From: a virus
Reading direction: 5' to 3' (one strand)
Length of the DNA stretch: 51,099 nt
Virus record (IMG/VR): IMGVR_UViG_3300025759_000141
Coordinates: 1 to 51,099 of that record
Of the stretch, positions 19,202 through 43,471 are shown one piece after another. Each line of letters begins with the position of its first letter. Within the stretch, counting starts at the first letter, position 1. Position numbers and translations under genes: made by a program. The notes below the pieces were generated by a model. It had not been told where the DNA came from. It ran no database searches and saw nothing but the letters and a program-made list of their open reading frames with translations.

Positions 19202-20407
19202 TTATGCGGCAAGGGCGGCAACCCGTTGCCAGTCGGCGGGTTTCATATTGAGCAATTGCCCGCCCCGTTGTTGCCACAAATCGACATCGTCAATGTCGGC
19301 TTTATGTGATACGGCTGTCACCGCATTGATCAGGGTTGCCCGTGATAATGGGCGGCCTTGCTCATAACCGGCTTGGCCGATAGTGTCGAGCAATCCATCA
19401 AGAACGCTGGACGTTTCTTTTTTGGTTAATTGCATCACCTTGCCAAGCCCGCCAACGACGGCGGTTTTGTCGATTGCGAAACCGTCGATAGTATCAGCGG
19501 CGGCTTGTTTCATTTGCTCAATGACCTGATCGAATGCGTCGCGGCTTGAATACACCCCGACAAGATCGCGAATTTTCAATTCAAGCGCGTGATTGTCGGC
19601 GTCTTTTGCCTGATCAGATAGCAAGCCCCAGTCGTCGGTATCACGGGCACTTGTGATATGGCTTGACCGTGTTTTGTTTTGGGTTTGCATACCGTTGAGG
19701 CAGGCCAACGTCCAAGCGATTTGATACACGCTAACTGATCCCGCGCCAACTTCACTATTCTGCAAGCCGATGCCGTTAGCCATTAGATCATTAAGCGCGG
19801 CACCGGTGCCAGTCTGGACAAGAGATTTAAGGCGCAAATATAAACGCTTGTCGGTCACGTCGGCATTTACAACCTGAAACGCGGCGGGGTTGTCCATCAA
19901 TTGCGGCAAGGCGGCTTCGAGCAAATTGACATTGTCGAACGTCTTAAACTTGTCTGAAACAAAAGCCCGCACCATGCCATTAGGGTTTTCGGCATTGTTC
20001 CATTGCGAGCGGGGCGGCTGGTTTATACCAACACCGCCAAACGTAAACGGCGCGGCTGTTTCAGCATGGCGTGTCCGAATCATTCGGGTGTCGTCGCTGT
20101 CGCGCCAGATTGCATTCAAAAGCCCGTCGAATTCAGCGGGATATCTGGCCTGAAGCCGTCGCGCCGTGCGGGTTTCGATATCGGCATGGCTGGCAATTTG
20201 CCCAAATGATACATCGTTAATGTCGAAAAACTGCGTTGGAACCCCGCCGGATTGCTCGACAACGATTTGCGGCTTGCCGGTTTCGGTTGTCGTTTTTTGT
20301 AAATCTTTTAAAGGTGCCAGATAATCAGCATTCCGGCTGGCCTGATCTTGTACCTTAATCAAGAGATTTGCGAGCGAATTTTTGTTATTTTCGATAGTGT
20401 TTGTCAT
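19202..20407 (-). CDS. DUF932-family protein
   Basis: A 401-residue protein starting MTNTIENNKNSLANLLIKVQ. The middle part, MVRAFVSDKFKTFDNVNLLE and its surroundings, plus VYQIAWTLACLNGMQTQNKT, matches the pattern of DUF932 proteins of phages and plasmids. No catalytic motif is known for the family; proposed links are to plasmid or phage replication or antirestriction, without proof. The ATG at 20407 is chosen because TACGGGAT lies 9-15 bases upstream; the frame extends further to 20473 but into the leader hairpin. It forms a single transcription unit in the GC-richer block between TerS and TerL. Confidence 0.7.
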   Translation of the reverse strand: MTNTIENNKNSLANLLIKVQDQASRNADYLAPLKDLQKTTTETGKPQIVVEQSGGVPTQFFDINDVSFGQIASHADIETRTARRLQARYPAEFDGLLNAIWRDSDDTRMIRTRHAETAAPFTFGGVGINQPPRSQWNNAENPNGMVRAFVSDKFKTFDNVNLLEAALPQLMDNPAAFQVVNADVTDKRLYLRLKSLVQTGTGAALNDLMANGIGLQNSEVGAGSVSVYQIAWTLACLNGMQTQNKTRSSHITSARDTDDWGLLSDQAKDADNHALELKIRDLVGVYSSRDAFDQVIEQMKQAAADTIDGFAIDKTAVVGGLGKVMQLTKKETSSVLDGLLDTIGQAGYEQGRPLSRATLINAVTAVSHKADIDDVDLWQQRGGQLLNMKPADWQRVAALAA

Positions 20408-20416
20408 GGTTTTACA

Positions 20417-20492
20417 TCCCGTAAAAGTTAAAAACCGGCGGGCAATATTGCGCCGCCGGTGTTGTTGTCTCATAAAAGCCCATATGATGCAA
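20417..20492 (-). promoter_or_regulatory. Dyad-hairpin-ACGGGA leader of the DUF932 gene
   Basis: The 28-bp dyad at 20465-20492 is identical at 25 of 28 positions to that at 19114-19141. It is followed by a hairpin with eight-base arms (ACCGGCGG at 20453-20460 and CCGCCGGT at 20434-20441 on the minus strand) and five T (about 20430-20434), then TACGGGA at 20417-20423. The CATATG core is 74 nt from the ATG, exactly as in the other leader. The hairpin could also terminate transcripts from the 20511-21254 gene, or act as an attenuator. Confidence 0.65.
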
Positions 20493-20510
20493 GTGAATTT
20501 TTATAAATTT

Positions 20511-21254
20511 CTATTCCGCCCCAATATCGCCCGCGACGTGATGCCGGATAATAGCGCGGGGCGATAGCGTCCGGACAAAAGCCCGCAAGCGTTCCCCGTC
20601 GGTTTGTTTTTGTTCTTGTCCGGCGGTTGCCCGCCAATGAATGGCAACATTGCCGCCCGCCGCATAACAGCCCCCGCGGTCATTGTTTTCTATTTTCTTT
20701 TTGCTGGCACCGTGACCGGTAAAGCCAATAATATAATCACGATCTAGACGGGCGCATAATGGCTTGCCATTGCCGCAATTAATACACCCTACATTGTCCA
20801 AATATTCAGCGGGGCAACGAACAACCCGCACCGGTTCCGATATACGGCCTGAAGGCCAAACATCGGCGGGTTTTATCGTCGCGTTTTTGCCATTTTTCCA
20901 AAAAGATTTTTTAACGACTGCAACAACCGGCGCGAACTTATCGGCGCATATTTCGGCGGCTTCAAAAAGTGAATCGGCGGAATAGTTTATCGTCGTCTTG
21001 TTAGGTGCCAGTTTATGCGCCCAAAATAGCGGGTGAAAATGGGAATAAGTGAAGCTTTCCCCATGACGCGGCTTGGCATCAAGAACGGCGTCCAGATATA
21101 CAAAGTCAATTTGATCGGATTTGCACCCGCGCCCGCTGTCGTTCAGTCTGCAATCAGCGGGGCAAGTTCCAAAGTTGTCCCCGTCGCCCGCCCGATAGGT
21201 CACGGCTAAACCGCCCGTTTTATTTGCTGTTGAATTTTTAACAGTTTTAAGCAT
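20511..21254 (-). CDS. Cysteine-rich GP88/DUF7227-like phage protein
   Basis: A 247-residue protein with ordered cysteines: C31, C35, C44 in GTCPADCRLNDSGRGC; C147, C157, C160, C167 in RCPAEYLDNVGCINCGNGKP plus LC; and C196 in GGCYAAGG. Histidines in TYSHFHPLFW and the end RHHVAGDIG are also notable. The order of CPxxC, a beta-alpha core and late Cys cluster resembles phage GP88/DUF7227-like proteins, which may bind metal or an iron-sulphur cluster. The ATG at 21254 follows ACGGGAG and is 35 nt from a strong -10 box. Function not established. Confidence 0.6.
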   Translation of the reverse strand: MLKTVKNSTANKTGGLAVTYRAGDGDNFGTCPADCRLNDSGRGCKSDQIDFVYLDAVLDAKPRHGESFTYSHFHPLFWAHKLAPNKTTINYSADSLFEAAEICADKFAPVVAVVKKSFWKNGKNATIKPADVWPSGRISEPVRVVRCPAEYLDNVGCINCGNGKPLCARLDRDYIIGFTGHGASKKKIENNDRGGCYAAGGNVAIHWRATAGQEQKQTDGERLRAFVRTLSPRAIIRHHVAGDIGAE

Positions 21255-21288
21255 TTCAAAAGCTCCCGTAATTGAATGCGATTTATCC

Positions 21289-21317
21289 CATATATAGAAC
21301 AAACAAAGCCCCGTCAA
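21289..21317 (-). promoter_or_regulatory. Promoter of the 20511-21254 gene
   Basis: Minus-strand -35 TTGACG (21312-21317), 17-bp spacer, -10 TATATG (21289-21294) continuing as GGGATAAAT. The -35 box lies in one arm of the terminator at 21304-21337, so the end of the upstream unit and the start of this one overlap. The distance from the -10 box to the ATG is 35 nt; TACGGGAG is at 21263-21270. Confidence 0.75.
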
Positions 21318-21673: not shown

Positions 21674-22078
21674 GTCGAAAACGACATCCCAGTTAAATTT
21701 GCCTGTTTGGTGGTGTATGGGCTCGACGGATTGCAGCCCGTCCATTTTTAGATCGACGGCCGCACCGGCCGGATACAAAAACAATTCTGGATCATCCATA
21801 GGTTTGTTCTGTTTTTTAATTAGTATCCATGACGGGCTGTGCTGGTGGCGGGAAAGCCATGCCACTTGCGACGGCTGCAAGGTCACCCCGTTGCTGGTCA
21901 AAAACTTTAATTCTACAAAATGAAACGTGCCTTGTTCGTCGCACAAAAGAACATCAGGGATGCCCGCGCCGATAGAGTTTTCAATCCGCGTCAACAATAT
22001 CTTGCGGTTCGATCTCTGCGTCGCTTCTTTCATCTGCTTGTAAAAGCCTGCTTCGCGCTTTACCGCGATTGCTGGCAT
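21656..22078 (-). CDS. VRR-NUC-like nuclease (PD-(D/E)XK fold)
   Basis: A protein of about 140 residues with the VRR-NUC pattern: an early helix REAGFYKQMKEATQRSNRKI, then LTRIENSIGAGIPDVLLCDE with D42, and the catalytic strand FHFVELKFL with E56 and K58. Such nucleases resolve or cut branched DNA or process ends; close use here could be in replication, recombination or packaging. The start is uncertain: ATGs at 22120, 22078 and 22033 are possible, all inside the TerS gene in another frame. 22078 keeps the expected first helix. Confidence 0.75.
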   Translation of the reverse strand: MPAIAVKREAGFYKQMKEATQRSNRKILLTRIENSIGAGIPDVLLCDEQGTFHFVELKFLTSNGVTLQPSQVAWLSRHQHSPSWILIKKQNKPMDDPELFLYPAGAAVDLKMDGLQSVEPIHHQTGKFNWDVVFDLICPR

Positions 22079-22613
22079 TCGTTGTTTCTTCAGGGGTGAT
22101 GTTGATTGTGACTGGGGCATAACTTTGTTTGATTTCCTCTAAAGCTTTCATCACGTCTTCTTTGCTCATGCTGTCAATCGAGCCATGACGGATTTCCGAT
22201 TTGTTAACGTAAATGTCGCCCTGCGCTTGACCGCGCCGATACTCAGCCTGCACGGCTGCGCTATATGCGCCGTTCTGCAAAGCCACATCGCGAATAGTTT
22301 GCAAATCTCTTAAATGCCTTTGATATGTTACCCCATACTTTTCGTCTAACTCGCGCCGGTAAGCTTGTATGGCGGCCACAACATGGGGCGAAATGTGTGG
22401 GTTGGTTAACTCATATGCCCGCGAATGGGCTGACGTAACAGCATATCCCGCATTGATAGCGGCCTCTCGCAAAGTTATCTGACCGTCTTTACTCACAAGT
22501 TCTTTTACAAAAAGTTCTTGCTTGCGGGTTAGGGGCTGCTCGACAGTTGCAGGCGGTCGGCCTCGCGTTTCACGGGGCTTGCCCGTCACTTTGCTTGCTG
22601 ATTTTCTTGCCAT
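21981..22613 (-). CDS. terS: Terminase small subunit
   Basis: A 210-residue protein. Residues about 28-85 have the TerS pattern: LTRKQELFVKELVSKDGQIT, LREAAINAGYAVTSAHSRAY, then ELTNPHISPHVVAAIQAYRR, a helix-turn-helix type DNA-binding unit. A coiled-coil oligomerisation part follows, and an acidic tail (ERSDAEIEPQDIVDAD) that probably contacts TerL. The ATG at 22613 is preferred to 22646 because the promoter's transcript would begin near 22642. It recognises the packaging site. It is unusual in lying 4 kb from terL, and its last about 100 bases are shared with the nuclease gene. Confidence 0.8.
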   Translation of the reverse strand: MARKSASKVTGKPRETRGRPPATVEQPLTRKQELFVKELVSKDGQITLREAAINAGYAVTSAHSRAYELTNPHISPHVVAAIQAYRRELDEKYGVTYQRHLRDLQTIRDVALQNGAYSAAVQAEYRRGQAQGDIYVNKSEIRHGSIDSMSKEDVMKALEEIKQSYAPVTINITPEETTNASNRGKARSRLLQADERSDAEIEPQDIVDAD

Positions 22614-22648
22614 AAGGATTTCACCGTTAATTTGGTCACGTCCCATAG

Positions 22649-22678
22649 TTTATACAGGATATACCTATATAGGGTCAA
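22649..22678 (-). promoter_or_regulatory. Promoter of terS
   Basis: Minus-strand -35 TTGACC (22673-22678), 18-bp spacer, -10 TATAAA (22649-22654), 36 nt from the chosen ATG. The spacer contains the near-palindrome CCTATATAGG (22664-22673), a possible operator. Confidence 0.7.
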
Positions 22679-22740
22679 AAATATTTTTTATAAAAAACGC
22701 GCTCAAATCACACTAAGGCCGATTTGGCATTTAACTAAAA

Positions 22741-22841
22741 GGTTACACCTTGTATTTTATAGTGTAACCGAGAAGTGTAACCTTTTTTCCTTTGTTTAAT
22801 AGTAAGTTACAACCAAAGTTACACGGTTACACCGGTTACAC
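22741..22841. repeat. GGTTACAC repeat cluster, origin or operator candidate
   Basis: Within 101 bp the octamer GGTTACAC occurs exactly at 22741-22748, 22825-22832 and 22834-22841, its reverse GTGTAACC at 22762-22769 and 22775-22782, and a near copy AGTTACAC at 22817-22824; AGTTACAA (22805-22812) is a weaker copy. The last copies are spaced eight to nine bases apart. No gene covers the region. Iterons of this kind are bound by initiators or repressors. Confidence 0.8.
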
Positions 22842-22890
22842 CTATTTTAAACAAAAAAATATTTTTTTTAAATTTCTCCCTATATAAGGT
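22842..22890. other. AT-rich tract next to the repeats
   Basis: Almost pure A/T over about 35 bases (runs of A, then T, at 22851-22877) directly beside the GGTTACAC cluster. A repeat cluster plus an AT-rich tract is the classic layout of a replication origin, where the tract is the unwinding element. The remaining noncoding bases to 22957 show no gene. Confidence 0.6.
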
Positions 22891-22957
22891 GATACCCGAA
22901 ATAACGCTTTTGAAGAAGAGTAACCGTTCTGTGGTTTCGGAACGACAAAATGTTATT

Positions 22958-23044
22958 TTATTTCCAAGCGTCCCATAAAAGAAAGGCCAGCAGGGCGAAC
23001 CCGCTGACCAGATAGGTGGTTATGAAGATGTCTTCAGGTGACAT
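22958..23044 (-). CDS. 28-aa single-span membrane peptide
   Basis: A 28-codon frame (MSPEDIFITTYLVSGFALLA, then FLLWDAWK). After six polar residues it is one continuous membrane span ending in a Trp/Lys border. The ATG overlaps the previous stop by 11 bases, and AAGG lies nine bases upstream. It is the last gene before the repeat region. Its length makes it easy to miss; the membrane pattern and coupling are the support. Confidence 0.5.
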   Translation of the reverse strand: MSPEDIFITTYLVSGFALLAFLLWDAWK

Positions 23045-23225
23045 CGCTGAAGCCTTTTTTGTTGGGCTCGACGATCTCCATTGCCCATTCCGCAGTCTGT
23101 TTGACAAAGCATTTATCTGGCAGCTTCTGCGCGGCCTTGTGTATCGAACGGACGGCTGACTCTAGCTGGGCTAGTTTGATTGACGTTCCTTGTTCGATTG
23201 CGGCTTCGACGTTATCAAGAGACAT
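23034..23225 (-). CDS. Small helical protein
   Basis: A 63-residue protein starting MSLDNVEAAIEQGTSIKLAQ and continuing with LESAVRSIHKAAQKLPDKCF. The start is set by a strong GGGGAGGCGG site upstream; the frame extends to 23276 but would overlap the zinc-ribbon gene further. It looks like an amphipathic helical protein. No family recognised. Confidence 0.65.
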   Translation of the reverse strand: MSLDNVEAAIEQGTSIKLAQLESAVRSIHKAAQKLPDKCFVKQTAEWAMEIVEPNKKGFSDVT

Positions 23226-23340
23226 TTTTTTCCGCCTCCCCGTATTCGACGCACTCATAGCAGGCGGTCGGTTCATCGAACATTTCGGTCAGGGCTTCGC
23301 ACTCTTCGCAGCCTTCGACAGGTTTAAAATCTGGGGACAT
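23215..23340 (-). CDS. 41-aa zinc-ribbon-like protein
   Basis: A 41-codon acidic frame with two CxxC pairs, C11-E-E-C14 and C27-Y-E-C30, spaced as in a small zinc ribbon. AAAGGA lies eight bases before the ATG. It overlaps the upstream gene by 17 bases and the downstream gene by 11, which is the general style of this cluster. Protein- or nucleic-acid-binding via zinc is inferred from the cysteines. Confidence 0.7.
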   Translation of the reverse strand: MSPDFKPVEGCEECEALTEMFDEPTACYECVEYGEAEKNVS

Positions 23341-25191: not shown

Positions 25192-25596
25192 ATGTATAAA
25201 GCGATCAACTCAGGAAAGATCGGCGAGCTTATTTGCATGGTTCGCCTGATGAAGCTGGAAGTCCCGTGCGAGATAGTTCACATCGAAACCACCGACATCG
25301 TGGCGCAATTACCTGAAGGTTTGATCCGCATCCAAGTGAAATCCAGTCAGTTTAAAAGAAACCACAGCGGGGTTGGCTATCAGTTTTCGCTGGCTTACGG
25401 CGGACGGAAAAAGCCGCTTACGAAAGAGCACTGCGACGTGGTTGCTTTTGTCGCGTTAGATCGAGAGCGCGTTTTGTTTAAACCGGTAGAATGTTTAAAG
25501 GGGCAGATAACCAAGCGGTTTCTGCCCCATAAGTTTGATAGAGATGATCTTGAGTCTAGGTCTTGGAACCATTGCCTAGATCACTTGTTTTTATGA
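25192..25596 (+). CDS. PD-(D/E)XK nuclease-like protein
   Basis: A 134-residue protein, one of only two plus-strand genes. It has the small-resolvase layout: E12 in KIGELICMVRLMKL, D35 in IETTDIVAQ, and IQVKSS with Q48 and K50, the usual core of the fold in group-I-intron-type endonucleases and similar families. Glutamine replaces the usual acidic residue (D/E-x-K as Q-x-K), a known variant. The gene converges on another nuclease-like gene and overlaps it by six bases. A conventional promoter is not obvious; the region 25065-25191 has leader-like CTACGGGAATG and TATGGGAATT motifs. Could be a homing-type or resolvase-type enzyme. Confidence 0.65.
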   Translation: MYKAINSGKIGELICMVRLMKLEVPCEIVHIETTDIVAQLPEGLIRIQVKSSQFKRNHSGVGYQFSLAYGGRKKPLTKEHCDVVAFVALDRERVLFKPVECLKGQITKRFLPHKFDRDDLESRSWNHCLDHLFL

Positions 25597-26007
25597 AAAC
25601 AAACCCACATTAAAATGAACCACTTTTTCTATATCTTTGGGATCACCCCTGTCTTTGCGGCCGCCGGTTGAAACAACGCCTCTAGCGGTGCTCATGTTAA
25701 GCATCCCACAAGTGTCAGACCAACGCACGAAAAGCACCGTGGGTATCTTGACAAGATGATAAATGCTCACGGCTATATTAACTTTTCTTTCAGAAATCAT
25801 GTAAGTTTTATATTTTTGTTTCGGGTTGTTTCGGCATTTTATCTCTATGAAACAACTTAATGCGTCTTTAGAGCAGACGGCATAGTCAAAACAGGAAAGC
25901 TTTGGCAGCTTGTACAAAGTACAGTCAGGATTTCTTTTTTGTATGTATTCTGCACAAGCTCTTTCGTTTTCTATGTCCGCCGAACTTTCATAAACGGGTC
26001 GCATCAT
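25591..26007 (-). CDS. PD-(D/E)XK nuclease-like protein
   Basis: A 138-residue protein with a compact restriction-like core: a first helix ENERACAEYIQKRN, then FDYAVCSKD with D41 and FIEIKCRNN with E55 and K57. The C-terminal half is basic. This is the classical D...ExK order and differs from the plus-strand neighbour, so the two are not simple duplicates. It ends the zinc-ribbon gene run. Possible roles are host DNA degradation or DNA repair; no specific family recognised. Confidence 0.6.
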   Translation of the reverse strand: MMRPVYESSADIENERACAEYIQKRNPDCTLYKLPKLSCFDYAVCSKDALSCFIEIKCRNNPKQKYKTYMISERKVNIAVSIYHLVKIPTVLFVRWSDTCGMLNMSTARGVVSTGGRKDRGDPKDIEKVVHFNVGLFS

Positions 26008-27093: not shown

Positions 27094-27197
27094 CCGAAAA
27101 AAGTTTTAACTTTATTCCGCTTATTTAGGTTTTTCTTATGGCGGCCTTTTCGCCGAATACGCTTTTTAAAAGCGAGTACGACGGTTTGTTTAGCCAT
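27090..27197 (-). CDS. 35-aa strongly basic protein
   Basis: A 35-codon frame (MAKQTVVLAFKKRIRRKGRH, then KKNLNKRNKVKTFFG) that starts eight bases inside the end of the RHH gene. A similar pattern, a short hydrophobic start, a Lys/Arg-rich core with GRHKKNLNK, and a short tail, is familiar from small phage proteins. It may bind RNA or DNA. No clear ribosome site; translation is probably coupled. Confidence 0.6.
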   Translation of the reverse strand: MAKQTVVLAFKKRIRRKGRHKKNLNKRNKVKTFFG

Positions 27198-27327
27198 TCT
27201 GTTTATAGACTTCCCACATTATCCGAAGCTGCCCACTGATTGTGCGCCCTTCTGATTTTGCGAGACTTTTAATCTGCTCATATACCTCGATCGGTACTAA
27301 AACAGATTTCCATTTTGTTATGTCCAT
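27190..27327 (-). CDS. Ribbon-helix-helix (Arc/CopG-like) regulator
   Basis: A 45-residue protein with the full RHH pattern: strand KWKSVLVPIEV, helix EVYEQIKSLAKSEG, turn RTISG, and helix QLRIMWEVYKQ. TAGGGG lies about nine bases before the ATG. RHH proteins bind palindromic operators as dimers; this is the only clear DNA-binding regulator in the window, so it is a good candidate to act at the conserved promoters or dyads. That link is inferred. Confidence 0.8.
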   Translation of the reverse strand: MDITKWKSVLVPIEVYEQIKSLAKSEGRTISGQLRIMWEVYKQNG

Positions 27328-27361
27328 AAGAAAACCCCTACATATGGTGCTGATATAAGCG

Positions 27362-27390
27362 AATATATAGGAGCACTGAGGATAAAACAA
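27362..27390 (-). promoter_or_regulatory. Promoter of the RHH regulator
   Basis: Minus-strand TTGTTT (27385-27390), 17-bp spacer, TATATT (27362-27367), 35 nt to the ATG. The -10 region and downstream bases (TATATATTCGCTTATATC) resemble the core of the divergent promoter at 34499-34538. Confidence 0.65.
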
Positions 27391-27392
27391 GC

Positions 27393-27422
27393 AAAAAAAG
27401 CCCTGTACCGTAAGCACAGGGC
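27393..27422 (-). terminator. Terminator of the replication operon
   Basis: On the minus strand GCCCTGT and ACAGGGC (27416-27422 with 27400-27406) with a nine-base loop and seven T. It lies 20 bases after the stop of the 27-aa gene following polA. Confidence 0.9.
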
Positions 27423-31256: not shown

Positions 31257-31497
31257 GTTCTTCGTCCACAATATCTTCAATTTTTTCCATAAACTTTATG
31301 AAGACGGGGGTTTCGTCTCCCACCCACGCTCCGACTACGTTGTAGAACATGAACTCGACGGCGTCGTCGAACTCCATTCGATCCCGCTCGCACAAGATAG
31401 CAACGCATTTATCAAAATCATACGCAATAACGTCCGGTTGACATGCGCGGCTACACACGCCCACAAAGGCTTGATTAAATCCATCAGCTTTTAACAT
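31246..31497 (-). CDS. Conserved small phage/bacterial protein
   Basis: An 83-residue protein with a recognisable conserved block, AFVGVCSRACQPDVIAYDFD, KCVAILCERDRMEFDDAVEF and MFYNVVGAWVGDETPVFI. Homologous-looking sequences are frequent in phages and in bacteria, always unnamed. It sits between primase and helicase, sharing bases with both, so a replication-related role is possible. No catalytic motif seen. Confidence 0.7.
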   Translation of the reverse strand: MLKADGFNQAFVGVCSRACQPDVIAYDFDKCVAILCERDRMEFDDAVEFMFYNVVGAWVGDETPVFIKFMEKIEDIVDEEHGN

Positions 31498-33035
31498 TAG
31501 AAGGGTGACTCCTGTTGTCCGTTAAAGTCAGGGGTTTTTAATTCCACGTCCATTCTTTCATAAGAAGGAATAGACCAAACCCGTACAGGTCGGCCTTTGA
31601 TTTTTAATACACGACTTTCCCCGCCCATATCACGAAGACGTTGAGCTATTTTATAAGGCTTATATTCAAAAAACTTGTTACGTTTTAAGTACGACTCAAA
31701 GTCTTTCATTCGGAAGAACGTAATGTTTGTTTCTTCATCCGTCCACGGACGCTTCAACAATATTTCTTCCCTATCTTTTGCCGCCTGCATATGAGCACAA
31801 AACTCTTCTAAATAGTCATAGAATTGCCCGCTAGTGCTGGCGTCTTCAGCAACGTCGATGATGGCACTTTCATTTGCTTTCATCTCGTTCATTAAACCGC
31901 CTATGCGCGTCTCCCACGCCTGTTTACTGAGTGTGCGCGGCATTGTGTTCAACTGCTCCATACAAGCCTTCTGGAAGGCTAGTTGGCTCATTAAACCGTC
32001 AGTGTCTAATTCCAGCGGCTCGCCGTTTACATCAACAAACCAGACAGGCGGGTTTGAGTTGTACTTACGCAAGTTGGCGACGGTCGCGCCCTGTACCATA
32101 GAGCCGATACCGTGCTTTTTTGTTTGGCACAGTTCTTTGTTGCAGTGCGCGTTAATAGGCGCATCGCTGCACCGGTACGCGTAGTCTTTTTTCTGTAGCT
32201 GCTTTGCTACGACGTTGACCTCGCTTAAAGGAAGCGGCGGCTCAAGGTACTGCAAGTTGTATGTCAGGATTTCTGACTCCCAGCTATCGGGGTATGCTTT
32301 GCGTAGATACACGCCTATGTTAAACAGACCGTTGTTTCTTCCGCCCTCACTGATTTTGTTTTTAATTAAAAACTGTAGACAAGGCGGACCGTCACGCATG
32401 GTGGCGGTCTCTACCTCTTCGCCGATTTGTAATTTAGTGATCTGCTCCGGAGTCTGTTTGTGCGTTTCGTATAGCTCAAAAAACTCTTCTAGCTCTGCGC
32501 TGCTACCGTCATCTTTAATAGCATAGCGCAAGCCTTCTTCTGCGTTGTAGTAAGGCAGGTTCAGGAAATTTCCCACGTCATCGCGCTCTAAGTGGAGCTT
32601 AATCTGTTTTGGAAATATCTCGCTACCTCCGTAGCCGAGGGCAGCAGAAATTTGCTTTAGCGCATCCTGCATATCTTTGGCATCTACCCAGTCGGTAGTA
32701 AACAGGAAGCAATGCGCCCCACCAGACTTTGACCGGCAGACCACCAACGGCAGTTTTAGCTTCCTGATTTTTTCAACCAGAAGCTTGTGGTCAAGCGGGT
32801 ATTGGTCAACGTCAATACAGCCCCAGACGCACTGGTTGTTTTCGTTAATCGGTATGATGCCGATAGCGCGTCCTGTGCCAGCGATATGCCCTTCCCACAG
32901 TTCCGTGGTCCGTGGTTCGCGCACAATGGCTGCTCGTCCGGTGTTCTTACCGTTCGCTTGTGTTTTTTCAATTTTATATGTGCCATAGGCCAACTGTAGG
33001 CCGTTAAATATGGCAGAAAACTTTTCTACAGACAT
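31497..33035 (-). CDS. Primase of archaeo-eukaryotic type (TOTE-like)
   Basis: A 512-residue protein. The catalytic core has the DxD motif at 75-77 (WGCIDVDQYPLD) and the SGGAH motif at 104-108 (CRSKSGGAHCFLF), both of the AEP superfamily in the form found in TOTE-conflict primases. A later Cys cluster (CSDAPINAHCNKELC) resembles the PriCT-type zinc region. It makes primers for PolA. A strong hairpin lies between the upstream SSB-like gene and this start (33056-33085), probably lowering its expression relative to SSB. Confidence 0.85.
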   Translation of the reverse strand: MSVEKFSAIFNGLQLAYGTYKIEKTQANGKNTGRAAIVREPRTTELWEGHIAGTGRAIGIIPINENNQCVWGCIDVDQYPLDHKLLVEKIRKLKLPLVVCRSKSGGAHCFLFTTDWVDAKDMQDALKQISAALGYGGSEIFPKQIKLHLERDDVGNFLNLPYYNAEEGLRYAIKDDGSSAELEEFFELYETHKQTPEQITKLQIGEEVETATMRDGPPCLQFLIKNKISEGGRNNGLFNIGVYLRKAYPDSWESEILTYNLQYLEPPLPLSEVNVVAKQLQKKDYAYRCSDAPINAHCNKELCQTKKHGIGSMVQGATVANLRKYNSNPPVWFVDVNGEPLELDTDGLMSQLAFQKACMEQLNTMPRTLSKQAWETRIGGLMNEMKANESAIIDVAEDASTSGQFYDYLEEFCAHMQAAKDREEILLKRPWTDEETNITFFRMKDFESYLKRNKFFEYKPYKIAQRLRDMGGESRVLKIKGRPVRVWSIPSYERMDVELKTPDFNGQQESPF

Positions 33036-40568: not shown

Positions 40569-43471
40569 CGGATTTGCCTTCTTGAGTTAGCGGTTGCACT
40601 ACCTCCTGATACATTGGCCGCGGCACCGCCCGGTGTCAGGTTAGCTTCATATGCAAGTATGGCTGCGGTGTATTCAGCTATCAAGCCTTCAAAGTCTTTC
40701 ATAGAAAGACGAGCTTGAGCAACCCTGTCTGCAAAATCGGCTGGATTTTTTGCGTTTGCATCAACTATATCTTTAGCCCGAGCATAATTCATAGCTAAAG
40801 TTGAGCGCACTGTTCTAAGTTGCTCTAATGCTGATACATCCGACTTAGCTCCACCCGGCTGGAATCCTTTTACCTCTTGTTGCAACAACTCTAAATCCAA
40901 AGCAAAAATTCTGCCTTCTCTTCCTGCACGAGCTAACTCAATTGTTTTTCGACCTAAAGCACTTAACTGTTTGTCAGCTTTACTTGTTATTTTTGCTTGT
41001 GCCCCAGCATATCCCGTTCCTAAACCAAGGTCAGCTAATTGCCCTGCGACACCGTTGAAAAATCTGTTTAAAGTGGACACGAAACCTTGAGATTGAGTGT
41101 AATCCAAACCTGTTATGATAAAGGTAGGATCAGCCGTAGCACGATCTATATTGACGGTGTTGTCTGAGTTGAGTAATGGAACATCCTGATTCGGTGCTAC
41201 CATTTGCAGTTCCGGTACGGTCAAGCCAAGAGTGTTTAATGGAACAGGTGAATTACCCCCATTAAGAACACGTTTTCTAATGGCCGCTTTCATAAAGTCA
41301 GGCAGTTGACGCTTTTGAAGTAAACCGGTCTTCGGGTTGATAGAAGGTGCGGTATAAATGCTGATTTGGCTTTCCATAACAGGATCGGCAGCGCCGGATG
41401 CGTAAAGGTCGGTCATCTTTGTGCCAGCATCGTTAGTTGCTATAGAGAAGTACCTAAGAGCGTTGCCCGCGTCTCCTTTACCAAACATGTCTGGCGGAGA
41501 GTCCGGTTTCTCGTATGGAACAATAGCCCCACCACCAAAAGTTTCTTTAATATTGTCAATTTCATCATCTGTTGGGTAGAAAGGAGTCCCAGCTTTTATT
41601 GTTTCCCCGCGGAAAGTTATATCTTTAGCGGCGGTAACGGGTTTAGTGGTTGCAGCCTTCGGATCATCTACAATGCTTCCTATGGCAAACCCTTGTTTTG
41701 CAAGTCTGTAATAATCGTCGCTAAACTCTACAACTGACTGACGGGCCCCTGACTTAGGGTCTATCATATTAACAACCGCGCGGTCTTTTTCCGCCACCAC
41801 GCCAGACAGTACAGCGTTGTTCTTAATTGCCTCTTTAAACTCAGGGCTGTTCTTTTCAAAAGCCTTTATGTCTCCGTTTGGCATACGTAGGTTAACTGTG
41901 TCTGTGTCTGGAACTTTGGCTGTACCAGCTAACAGGCCGCCTTTTCCGCCTTGAGCTTCAGGCTTAATGGCATTTTCATACGCTTTGGTTCCCGGAGTTA
42001 AAACCTGCTGTGTATTGTCCGGGAAAAGTATGTTTACATCACCCTGTTTTTTAGGAGCTTCGTAAGGAATGACCGAGGTTTTGAAGCCTTTAATATCGTT
42101 GGCCTCTACAGAGCTAACATTAATCACATCCCCTTTTTTTAGTAACACGCCATCAACCTTTATAGGTTCAGTCACAGTGTAAGATTTTTTAGCGCCAGCC
42201 TCCCCAGTTTCAGCTTTGTACGGCGTTAAGGCGTCAGCATCTACCGTTGAAACTTGTGCGGGGCGTAAGTTTAAAAGTGTGCCTTTTGGGTATGACTCAT
42301 TGCCAATGACTACAGGTTTTGTAGTAACAAAAGGCTTTGTTGCCTTAACTTCTGTGGTTTTGTTTTTTAATTCTTGAAGCTTACGAGCCTCTTCACGACC
42401 AATCTCAGCATCAACTTGCGCCTCACCGCGCTGTACCGCCGCAAGTTTAAGTGCGCGTTCTTCTTTGTCCGCGGCTTTTTTATACTCAAGCTGTTGTTGA
42501 GCACGTGCGCCAATGGTCGGTAAAAGTTTTGTTTGTTGTGCCGCCATAGCCAAACGCTCCGCGGCGCTCAAGCCTTTGCGCTCCCCTGCCATAGGGCCTG
42601 AAAAAGCAAGCGCCGTGTTAGCAACATCAAACAGCATCTGCGCTTGTGTCATTCTTTTTTGTTCTTCAAGCGCCGCGGCTCTTTCCTCTGGTGTACCCAA
42701 ACCTGCCGCCGCATATCTGGCTTCCGCCCCCTCGGCCGCAGAAAGTACGCGCTCGTCATACGTAGGCTCATACACTGGGTATGTACCTGCCCGTAAGGAA
42801 GCCTCGGTCAAGTTTTGGGGCGAGGTAACAGTTAAACCTAGCGCTTTTTGAAAATCCGCTAAAGTTTCGCCGCCTTTTGAAAAGTATTGAACTGGCTGGT
42901 TGTCGCCGCGGCGGACCAGCCCGCCTTTGTTAAAATTTACGGGTGGTGTCTGACCAGCCCCCATCATTGCGGGGTCCATCATAGGGCCGGGGGCCGCGGG
43001 CTGCGGCGGAGGAGCCACAGTAGACATAATGCCTTCCGCCATCGCGCCGTCTACAGGCTGCGTCATCTGCTCCGCGGCTAACTCACCAATGCCCTGATCT
43101 ACAGAGGCTAGCTGAATAACCGGCTGAACCAAAGCTAGTACAGACTCAGGGGTCTGAGCAGCGTCTTCTGGCCCAACCAGACCAGCAAGCTCTTCGCGGC
43201 GAGCTTCAATCGGGGCCTCATCTCCGCGCATCATATTCATCATCTGTTCGTAATCATCCACGTTTTCCAAGTCGCCCATACTAGCAGACGCTTCAGTAAG
43301 CATCTGCTCAAGCATCTGTGGGTCTACGCCTTCCGGGACTTGCGGCATTTCTTCCATAGGCGGAGGAGTCATAGACGCAATTCCAGCGGCCATAGGATCG
43401 CCACCTTCTTGCATGTATACAGGTCCGCCTGCCGCGAACATTTGACGACTTAATACGCTTCTATCCATCAT
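40565..43471 (-). CDS. Large virion protein with repeated beta domains, 968 aa
   Basis: A 968-residue protein. The N-terminus is a Met/Pro-rich disordered region with MFAAGGPVYMQEGGDPMAAG, FNKGGLVRRG and QYFSKGGE (GG-V motifs). The middle has two interleaved repeat types: one of the form KPVVIGNESYPKGTLLNL, EPIKVDGVLLKKGDVINV and KDITFRGETIKAGTPFYP, each ending near a PY(K/E) pair, and one of the form VNILFPDNTQQVL, VNLRMPNGDIKAF, VNMIDPKSGAR. The C-terminal 250 residues are helical. Probably an ejected or internal structural protein. The ATG at 43471 overlaps the previous stop; 43468 is an equal alternative. Confidence 0.65.
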   Translation of the reverse strand: MMDRSVLSRQMFAAGGPVYMQEGGDPMAAGIASMTPPPMEEMPQVPEGVDPQMLEQMLTEASASMGDLENVDDYEQMMNMMRGDEAPIEARREELAGLVGPEDAAQTPESVLALVQPVIQLASVDQGIGELAAEQMTQPVDGAMAEGIMSTVAPPPQPAAPGPMMDPAMMGAGQTPPVNFNKGGLVRRGDNQPVQYFSKGGETLADFQKALGLTVTSPQNLTEASLRAGTYPVYEPTYDERVLSAAEGAEARYAAAGLGTPEERAAALEEQKRMTQAQMLFDVANTALAFSGPMAGERKGLSAAERLAMAAQQTKLLPTIGARAQQQLEYKKAADKEERALKLAAVQRGEAQVDAEIGREEARKLQELKNKTTEVKATKPFVTTKPVVIGNESYPKGTLLNLRPAQVSTVDADALTPYKAETGEAGAKKSYTVTEPIKVDGVLLKKGDVINVSSVEANDIKGFKTSVIPYEAPKKQGDVNILFPDNTQQVLTPGTKAYENAIKPEAQGGKGGLLAGTAKVPDTDTVNLRMPNGDIKAFEKNSPEFKEAIKNNAVLSGVVAEKDRAVVNMIDPKSGARQSVVEFSDDYYRLAKQGFAIGSIVDDPKAATTKPVTAAKDITFRGETIKAGTPFYPTDDEIDNIKETFGGGAIVPYEKPDSPPDMFGKGDAGNALRYFSIATNDAGTKMTDLYASGAADPVMESQISIYTAPSINPKTGLLQKRQLPDFMKAAIRKRVLNGGNSPVPLNTLGLTVPELQMVAPNQDVPLLNSDNTVNIDRATADPTFIITGLDYTQSQGFVSTLNRFFNGVAGQLADLGLGTGYAGAQAKITSKADKQLSALGRKTIELARAGREGRIFALDLELLQQEVKGFQPGGAKSDVSALEQLRTVRSTLAMNYARAKDIVDANAKNPADFADRVAQARLSMKDFEGLIAEYTAAILAYEANLTPGGAAANVSGGSATANSRRQIR

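Follow-up and report, generated by a model that had tools for sequence, protein, structure and literature searches.

The window, a 51-kb virus record in which nearly all genes lie on the minus strand, contains a cluster of short repeats in a noncoding gap of 387 bp (22647–23033) between terS (21981–22610, minus strand, PF03592, with the reading frame open from 22646) and an ORF at 23034–23276. No convincing gene was found in this gap, in line with an earlier note made from the sequence alone. A repeat search likewise bore out that note's count of three forward and two reverse copies of an octamer with a near copy: GGTTACAC occurs exactly at 22741+, 22762−, 22775−, 22825+ and 22834+ (a span of 101 bp), and the near copy AGTTACAC at 22817+ falls inside the same cluster. 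Only three more exact copies of GGTTACAC are present elsewhere in the 51 kb (whole-window expectation 1.23), and a rough Poisson estimate puts the chance of five copies in any 101-bp window at ~4e-11.

The full element (22657–22897) consists of three tandem, two inverted and one direct copy, set within A/T tracts and inverted outer boxes. Read along the terS strand, it opens with a box (TATATAGGG) and an A/T-rich tract (22843–22875), a candidate unwinding element, followed by three tandem GTGTAAC copies, namely iteron 1 (GTGTAACC on the terS strand; 22834–22841, +), iteron 2 (22825–22832, +) after a 9-bp step and iteron 3 (AGTTACAC; 22817–22824, +) after an 8-bp step. A spacer with a partial copy leads to the inverted pair, iterons 4 (22775–22782, −) and 5 (22762–22769, −), and to the single iteron 6 (22741–22748, +), oriented as the triple. 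Beyond iteron 6 come a short, GC-richer stretch and, on the terS side, the second A/T-rich tract (22677–22698), then an inverted CCCTATATAGGTATATCC, a possible sigma-70 promoter and terS itself. The earlier note had described an A/T-rich flank, which is indeed present, but on both sides rather than one: AAAAATATTTTT has exact copies in the window only at 22677–22688 and 22855–22866, one in each tract and inverted relative to each other. The outer boxes, CCCTATATAAGGTGATACCC (22878–22897, +) and CCCTATATAGGTATATCC (22657–22674, −), are inverted CCCTATATAGG-type sequences; neither these nor the 3+2+1 order of the repeats had been recognised in that note.

The possible terS promoter (TTGACC, 18 bp, TATAAA; 22649–22678, minus strand) was read by eye and weakly supported, its loose pattern being matched in 29 of 63 relatives and a promoter scan not detecting it, while a terminator-like hairpin lies upstream of the element (22985–23009, minus strand). 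DnaA boxes are a feature of many, though not all, iteron-type origins; the gap 22647–23033 has no match to TTWTNCACA. No Rfam match to a structured RNA was obtained at the element, and a T7-like promoter at its TATAGGGAGA-like edge was dropped as a candidate, the box being confined to the element. GC skew, which had been proposed as a check on origin function, shows no turning point here and is uninformative because nearly all genes are on one strand.

To place the element in a wider context, 80 TerS relatives were fetched from viral contigs. A search of relatives had been suggested in the earlier note, and in those fetched here the layout is conserved upstream of terS wherever upstream sequence suffices, with the tandem triple ~200–280 bp before terS and the 3+2+1 arrangement kept. 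Of 63 non-redundant elements, 60 have TATATA-type boxes at both ends, and the A/T tracts stand far above background. The core hexamer varies among phages (GTAACC, GTTACC, GTTACA, GTAACA, GGTACC and GGTACA), the copies within an element changing together. Such concerted change at six sites suggests, from sequence comparison, that the repeats are read by a trans-acting factor whose specificity has also changed. One phage (L008) carries a mixed array upstream of terS, in which a single GTTACC accompanies several GTAACC copies; it may be an intermediate between specificity classes or a recombinant of them. The nearest cultured relative, DSL-LC04 (L202), has no clear iteron array in the gap near terS (20474–21118 of its record); ~20-bp inverted repeats (TTCCTATAGGATACACTCTC) resembling the outer boxes are present there. 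Among bacterial and archaeal genomes (257 billion bases), a DNA pattern resembling the one used for the second sample described below had five matches. Tandem GTTACC triples occur in three to five MAG contigs of bacteria (L598–L602; Bacteroidales, Selenomonadaceae and Pseudomonadales), where the stretch that was fetched encodes no relative of TerS or of the primase; these may represent other phages or satellites that share the boxes.

Candidate readers were evaluated by an exclusion test, in which near-identity of a protein between phages with differing hexamers counted against it as the specificity determinant. For TerS, L039 (GTAACC) and L043 (GTTACA) show 100% identity, and the HTH region hardly varies among the hexamer types, which rules TerS out as the source of the specificity. 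Maximum identity between differing types reached 99.6% for UvrD, 99.2% for PolA and 100% for the ribbon-helix-helix (RHH) protein, and corresponding values were 100% for VRR-NUC-family members, 99.5% for the phrog_1362 family and ~97–99% for DUF7227. Ribbon-helix-helix proteins are binders of short tandem sites, and the RHH protein at 27190–27417 was an early favourite; it was rejected, its DNA-reading strand WKSVLVP being nearly invariant across types. The VRR-NUC, DUF7227 and phrog_1362 proteins were rejected as near-identical across types. TerS, VRR-NUC, UvrD, PolA, RHH and DUF7227 all being near-identical across switches, none of them sets the specificity. Among the upstream small genes, no universally present family tracks hexamer type, and the PDDEXK_14 endonuclease gene (25591–26007) is too narrowly distributed, being confined to a few near relatives of one type. 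That gene was seen only in the window and in L064, L015 and L014, the region otherwise holding different genes. The DUF7227 and phrog_1362 genes (19202–21317, between terS and terL) are swapped in order among relatives, and two phages (L074 and L077) encode a divergent DUF7227 protein with an inserted stretch.

The protein that does follow the repeats is the AEP primase encoded at 31497–33035 (minus strand). The primases of two relatives (L066 and L072) are 98% identical, with STVLKIKGRTVRVW near the C-terminus accompanying GTAACC in one and STTIRIKGRVVRVW accompanying GTTACA in the other. Five primase searches yielded 34 entries (including a few near-duplicates) with both the primase and the element, and in all 34 the first variable wing position agrees with the middle bases (V with GTAAC, L or T with GTTAC, Q with GGTAC) and the position two residues on agrees with the last base (K with mostly C, R with mostly A). 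Two further phages missed by the regular expression (L337 and L451) show the same wing–hexamer agreement. A TerS search of 25 further contigs gave only one new case (L416) besides the already known L265; for L416, Q predicted GGTAC beforehand and the element is mostly GTTACC, an exception at the middle bases, while K with C still fits. In a scan of 2,616 variable columns from 14 conserved proteins, the top predictor of the middle bases was primase column 477 (V476; symmetric uncertainty 0.86, next 0.54) and that of the last base was primase column 479 (K478; 1.00, next 0.46). Plain linkage fails to explain this signal because UvrD and PolA lie between the primase and the element.

When changes were counted on a tree of the primase core from which the wing had been left out, the middle bases switched about nine times, of which at least five are required by supported branches, and the last base about four times. 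Phylogenetically independent pairs all agree (5/5 for the middle bases and 4/4 for the last base), numbers that are too few for a significant sign test. A second sample comprised contigs picked by DNA pattern (mainly the GTAACC class) irrespective of the primase, with some overlap with the first set; V was found in 13 and K in 14 of the 14 contigs with a primase, and one contig (L523) has a divergent wing. This agreement is weaker evidence than it appears, as the VLK/GTAACC class is the commonest and the result partly reflects its base rate. TerS is encoded at 106 of 118 loci from both pattern scans. Taken as sequence co-variation, the association of repeat specificity with the primase wing, V476 with bases 2–3 and K478 with base 6, is well supported.

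Pfam assigns the primase to AEP-TOTE (PF22548, E=3.7e-10); a PriCT_1 match scored 18.7 bits, under the Pfam cut-off of 21.1, and there was no match to a helicase family in Pfam and no Toprim assignment. AlphaFold2 predicts a C-terminal winged helix (aa 395–490; 31566–31853, minus strand), modelled at moderate confidence over aa 401–490 (pLDDT ~70–88), with helices at 443–452 and 460–469 and wing strands at 473–479 and 482–490. The co-varying residues fall within codons 476–478 (31602–31610, minus strand), and in the model V476 and K478, at i and i+2 of the first wing strand, should face the same side. The best Foldseek matches were CRISPR-associated Prim-Pol (CAPP Prim-Pol) for the N-terminal part and TcpK for the C-terminal part, both with E >0.01.

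Primases that are ~28–30% identical to that of the window and have a comparable C-terminal wing are encoded by phages of Acinetobacter, Klebsiella, Pseudomonas, Salmonella and Providencia. In most distant phages the array lies directly upstream of the primase gene, with a similar general order, an 8- to 9-bp step and the frame GNNAC-y. The hexamers and wings pair as GCAACC with ALK, GGAACC with SIK or KLK, G(A/T)AACC with AIK, GGAACG with KLR and GTAAC(G/A) with VIR, so that the last-base rule (K with C, R with G or A) holds in 14 of 14 distant records, perhaps four or five lineages. The first-position rule looks looser in Bhz20 (SIK), where GTAACC and GGAACC are mixed, and JeffCo and Barton have short arrays only, making their assignment less firm. 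Six copies of TGGCACA occupy a gap near terS in 023Pt_psg01. SH-Ab 15497 (L468; ~20958–21080 and 43038–43150) and VLCpiS6a (L472; ~1752 and 25348) each have two arrays, one directly upstream of the primase gene and the other on the terS side, and a GC-rich hairpin (CCGTCCGACGGGG) lies inside an array of SH-Ab 15497. No origin is annotated in the parts of the distant cultured phage records that were viewed.

The best explanation of these results, to which we would give a probability of roughly three in four, is that the element at 22657–22897 is an iteron-type replication origin with the phage's own AEP primase as its initiator. A candidate origin with initiator boxes had been proposed in the earlier note and is still the best reading; the view that no known initiator was encoded in the window, and that an unrecognised small gene or host factor therefore acted in its place, is unsupported, the co-variation pointing instead to the primase, a likely binder gene inside the window which that note had missed. 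Under this proposal, the predicted C-terminal winged helix would bind the six GNNAC-y boxes chiefly through its beta-wing, with residue 476 pairing with hexamer bases 2–3 and residue 478 with base 6. With several primase molecules bound across the six iterons, the flanking A/T tracts would be distorted and perhaps melted, which could admit the phage helicases and leave the primase where the phage PolA would need its first primer as the origin fires. Binding may also affect terS transcription.

Primases that recognise their own origin are already known (P4 alpha, PMC4234260; ColE2 Rep, PMC4538821). The plasmid-encoded ColE2-type Rep resembles the scheme proposed here as an origin-specific AEP primase with a C-terminal DNA-binding module and a family A polymerase, DNA polymerase I, as partner (PMC4538821, PMC5862659), and the reported unwinding of DNA by this Rep through its PriCT-1 and HTH modules (PMC5862659) is a precedent for opening without a built-in helicase. 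Its origin, however, is very small and without iterons, unlike the six iterons and A/T tracts here, where moreover the PriCT-1 match is below the Pfam cut-off. In P4 alpha, a replication protein that likewise includes a primase, repeats in the origin are bound by a C-terminal winged helix (PMC4234260), a domain that is predicted here, but P4 alpha combines a Toprim primase with a built-in helicase, whereas the window has an AEP type and helicases as separate genes. A C-terminal winged helix suspected of origin recognition has been described for PrimPol-PV1 AEP primases (PolpTN2, PrimQH and others; PMC5862659), although neither cognate iterons nor specificity residues were found in that text and Pfam places the window primase in AEP-TOTE. 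TcpK of plasmid pCW3, the best C-terminal fold match, binds 9-nt tandem boxes by its beta-wing in the major groove (PMC6137059), the wing-based reading mode that the window co-variation suggests; as a conjugation accessory protein without a primase, it offers a fold resemblance only. In the literature searched, with most subscription papers falling outside, no origin, iterons or specificity code were described for this primase family.

The main rival is that the repeats are a primase-bound operator that serves chiefly to switch transcription, through autoregulation in some phages and as an early–late switch at terS here, with the origin elsewhere. In the window family the element adjoins terS, and distant phages have it immediately before the primase gene; arrays in front of the primase gene and of terS-side genes, among them the double arrays of SH-Ab 15497 and VLCpiS6a, would suit an operator as well. 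We nevertheless consider it unlikely, since the paired A/T tracts and inverted outer boxes look more like an unwinding region, and site-specific priming is the simplest account of why a primase would carry a domain that binds a particular DNA sequence. The earlier note had itself envisaged that the repeats might be only a terS operator; in the form in which TerS is the binder (cosB or pac) this fails as to specificity, with TerS nearly or fully identical across differing repeats, leaving a primase-bound operator that would control terS.

A packaging site bound by TerS is accordingly the least probable reading. In some phages cosB-type sites lie immediately upstream of terS, as the element does here, but the identity of TerS between GTAACC and GTTACA phages, its nearly invariant HTH and the location of the distant arrays upstream of the primase gene all weigh against it. 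Scarcely more probable is a small phage protein or host factor as the binder, the wing co-variation then being an indirect consequence. The small genes between the primase and terS are highly variable and were tested only in part, and an RHH protein is encoded in the window; yet the RHH protein shows 100% identity between types, none of the universally present small-gene families follows the type, genes closer to the element than the primase lack comparable co-variation, and phages with other layouts show the last-base rule again.

If the primase is indeed the initiator, its wing could embody a recognition code, with residue 476 setting bases 2–3 and residue 478 the last base (K for C/T, R for A/G). 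Phages in nature would then have jumped repeatedly between origin-specificity classes, changing the wing and all six iterons together, and origin firing and the timing of terS or primase expression would both depend on the same primase–iteron complex. This extended scheme is tentative, and in our judgement falls somewhat short of even odds. Such switching could be driven by a need to evade nucleases aimed at the origin, or satellites that exploit the replication machinery. In PLE satellites an iteron origin is pressed by an origin-directed nuclease of ICP1 (PMC8263062), a pressure that offers a possible reason for concerted switching, although PLE RepA is an unrelated initiator with ~30-bp semi-palindromic iterons.

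Through our analysis, a widespread and largely uncultured phage group gains a proposed origin and initiator, as do cultured phages of Acinetobacter, Klebsiella, Pseudomonas, Salmonella and Providencia. On this view the primase, with no separate initiator, may be the origin-recognition factor of a module that comprises an AEP primase, SNF2- and UvrD-like helicases and PolA. The proposal is based on natural variation and predicts simple binding tests, and the phages concerned would provide a natural series of protein–DNA specificity switches in which the joint change of an initiator and its multi-copy origin can be studied.
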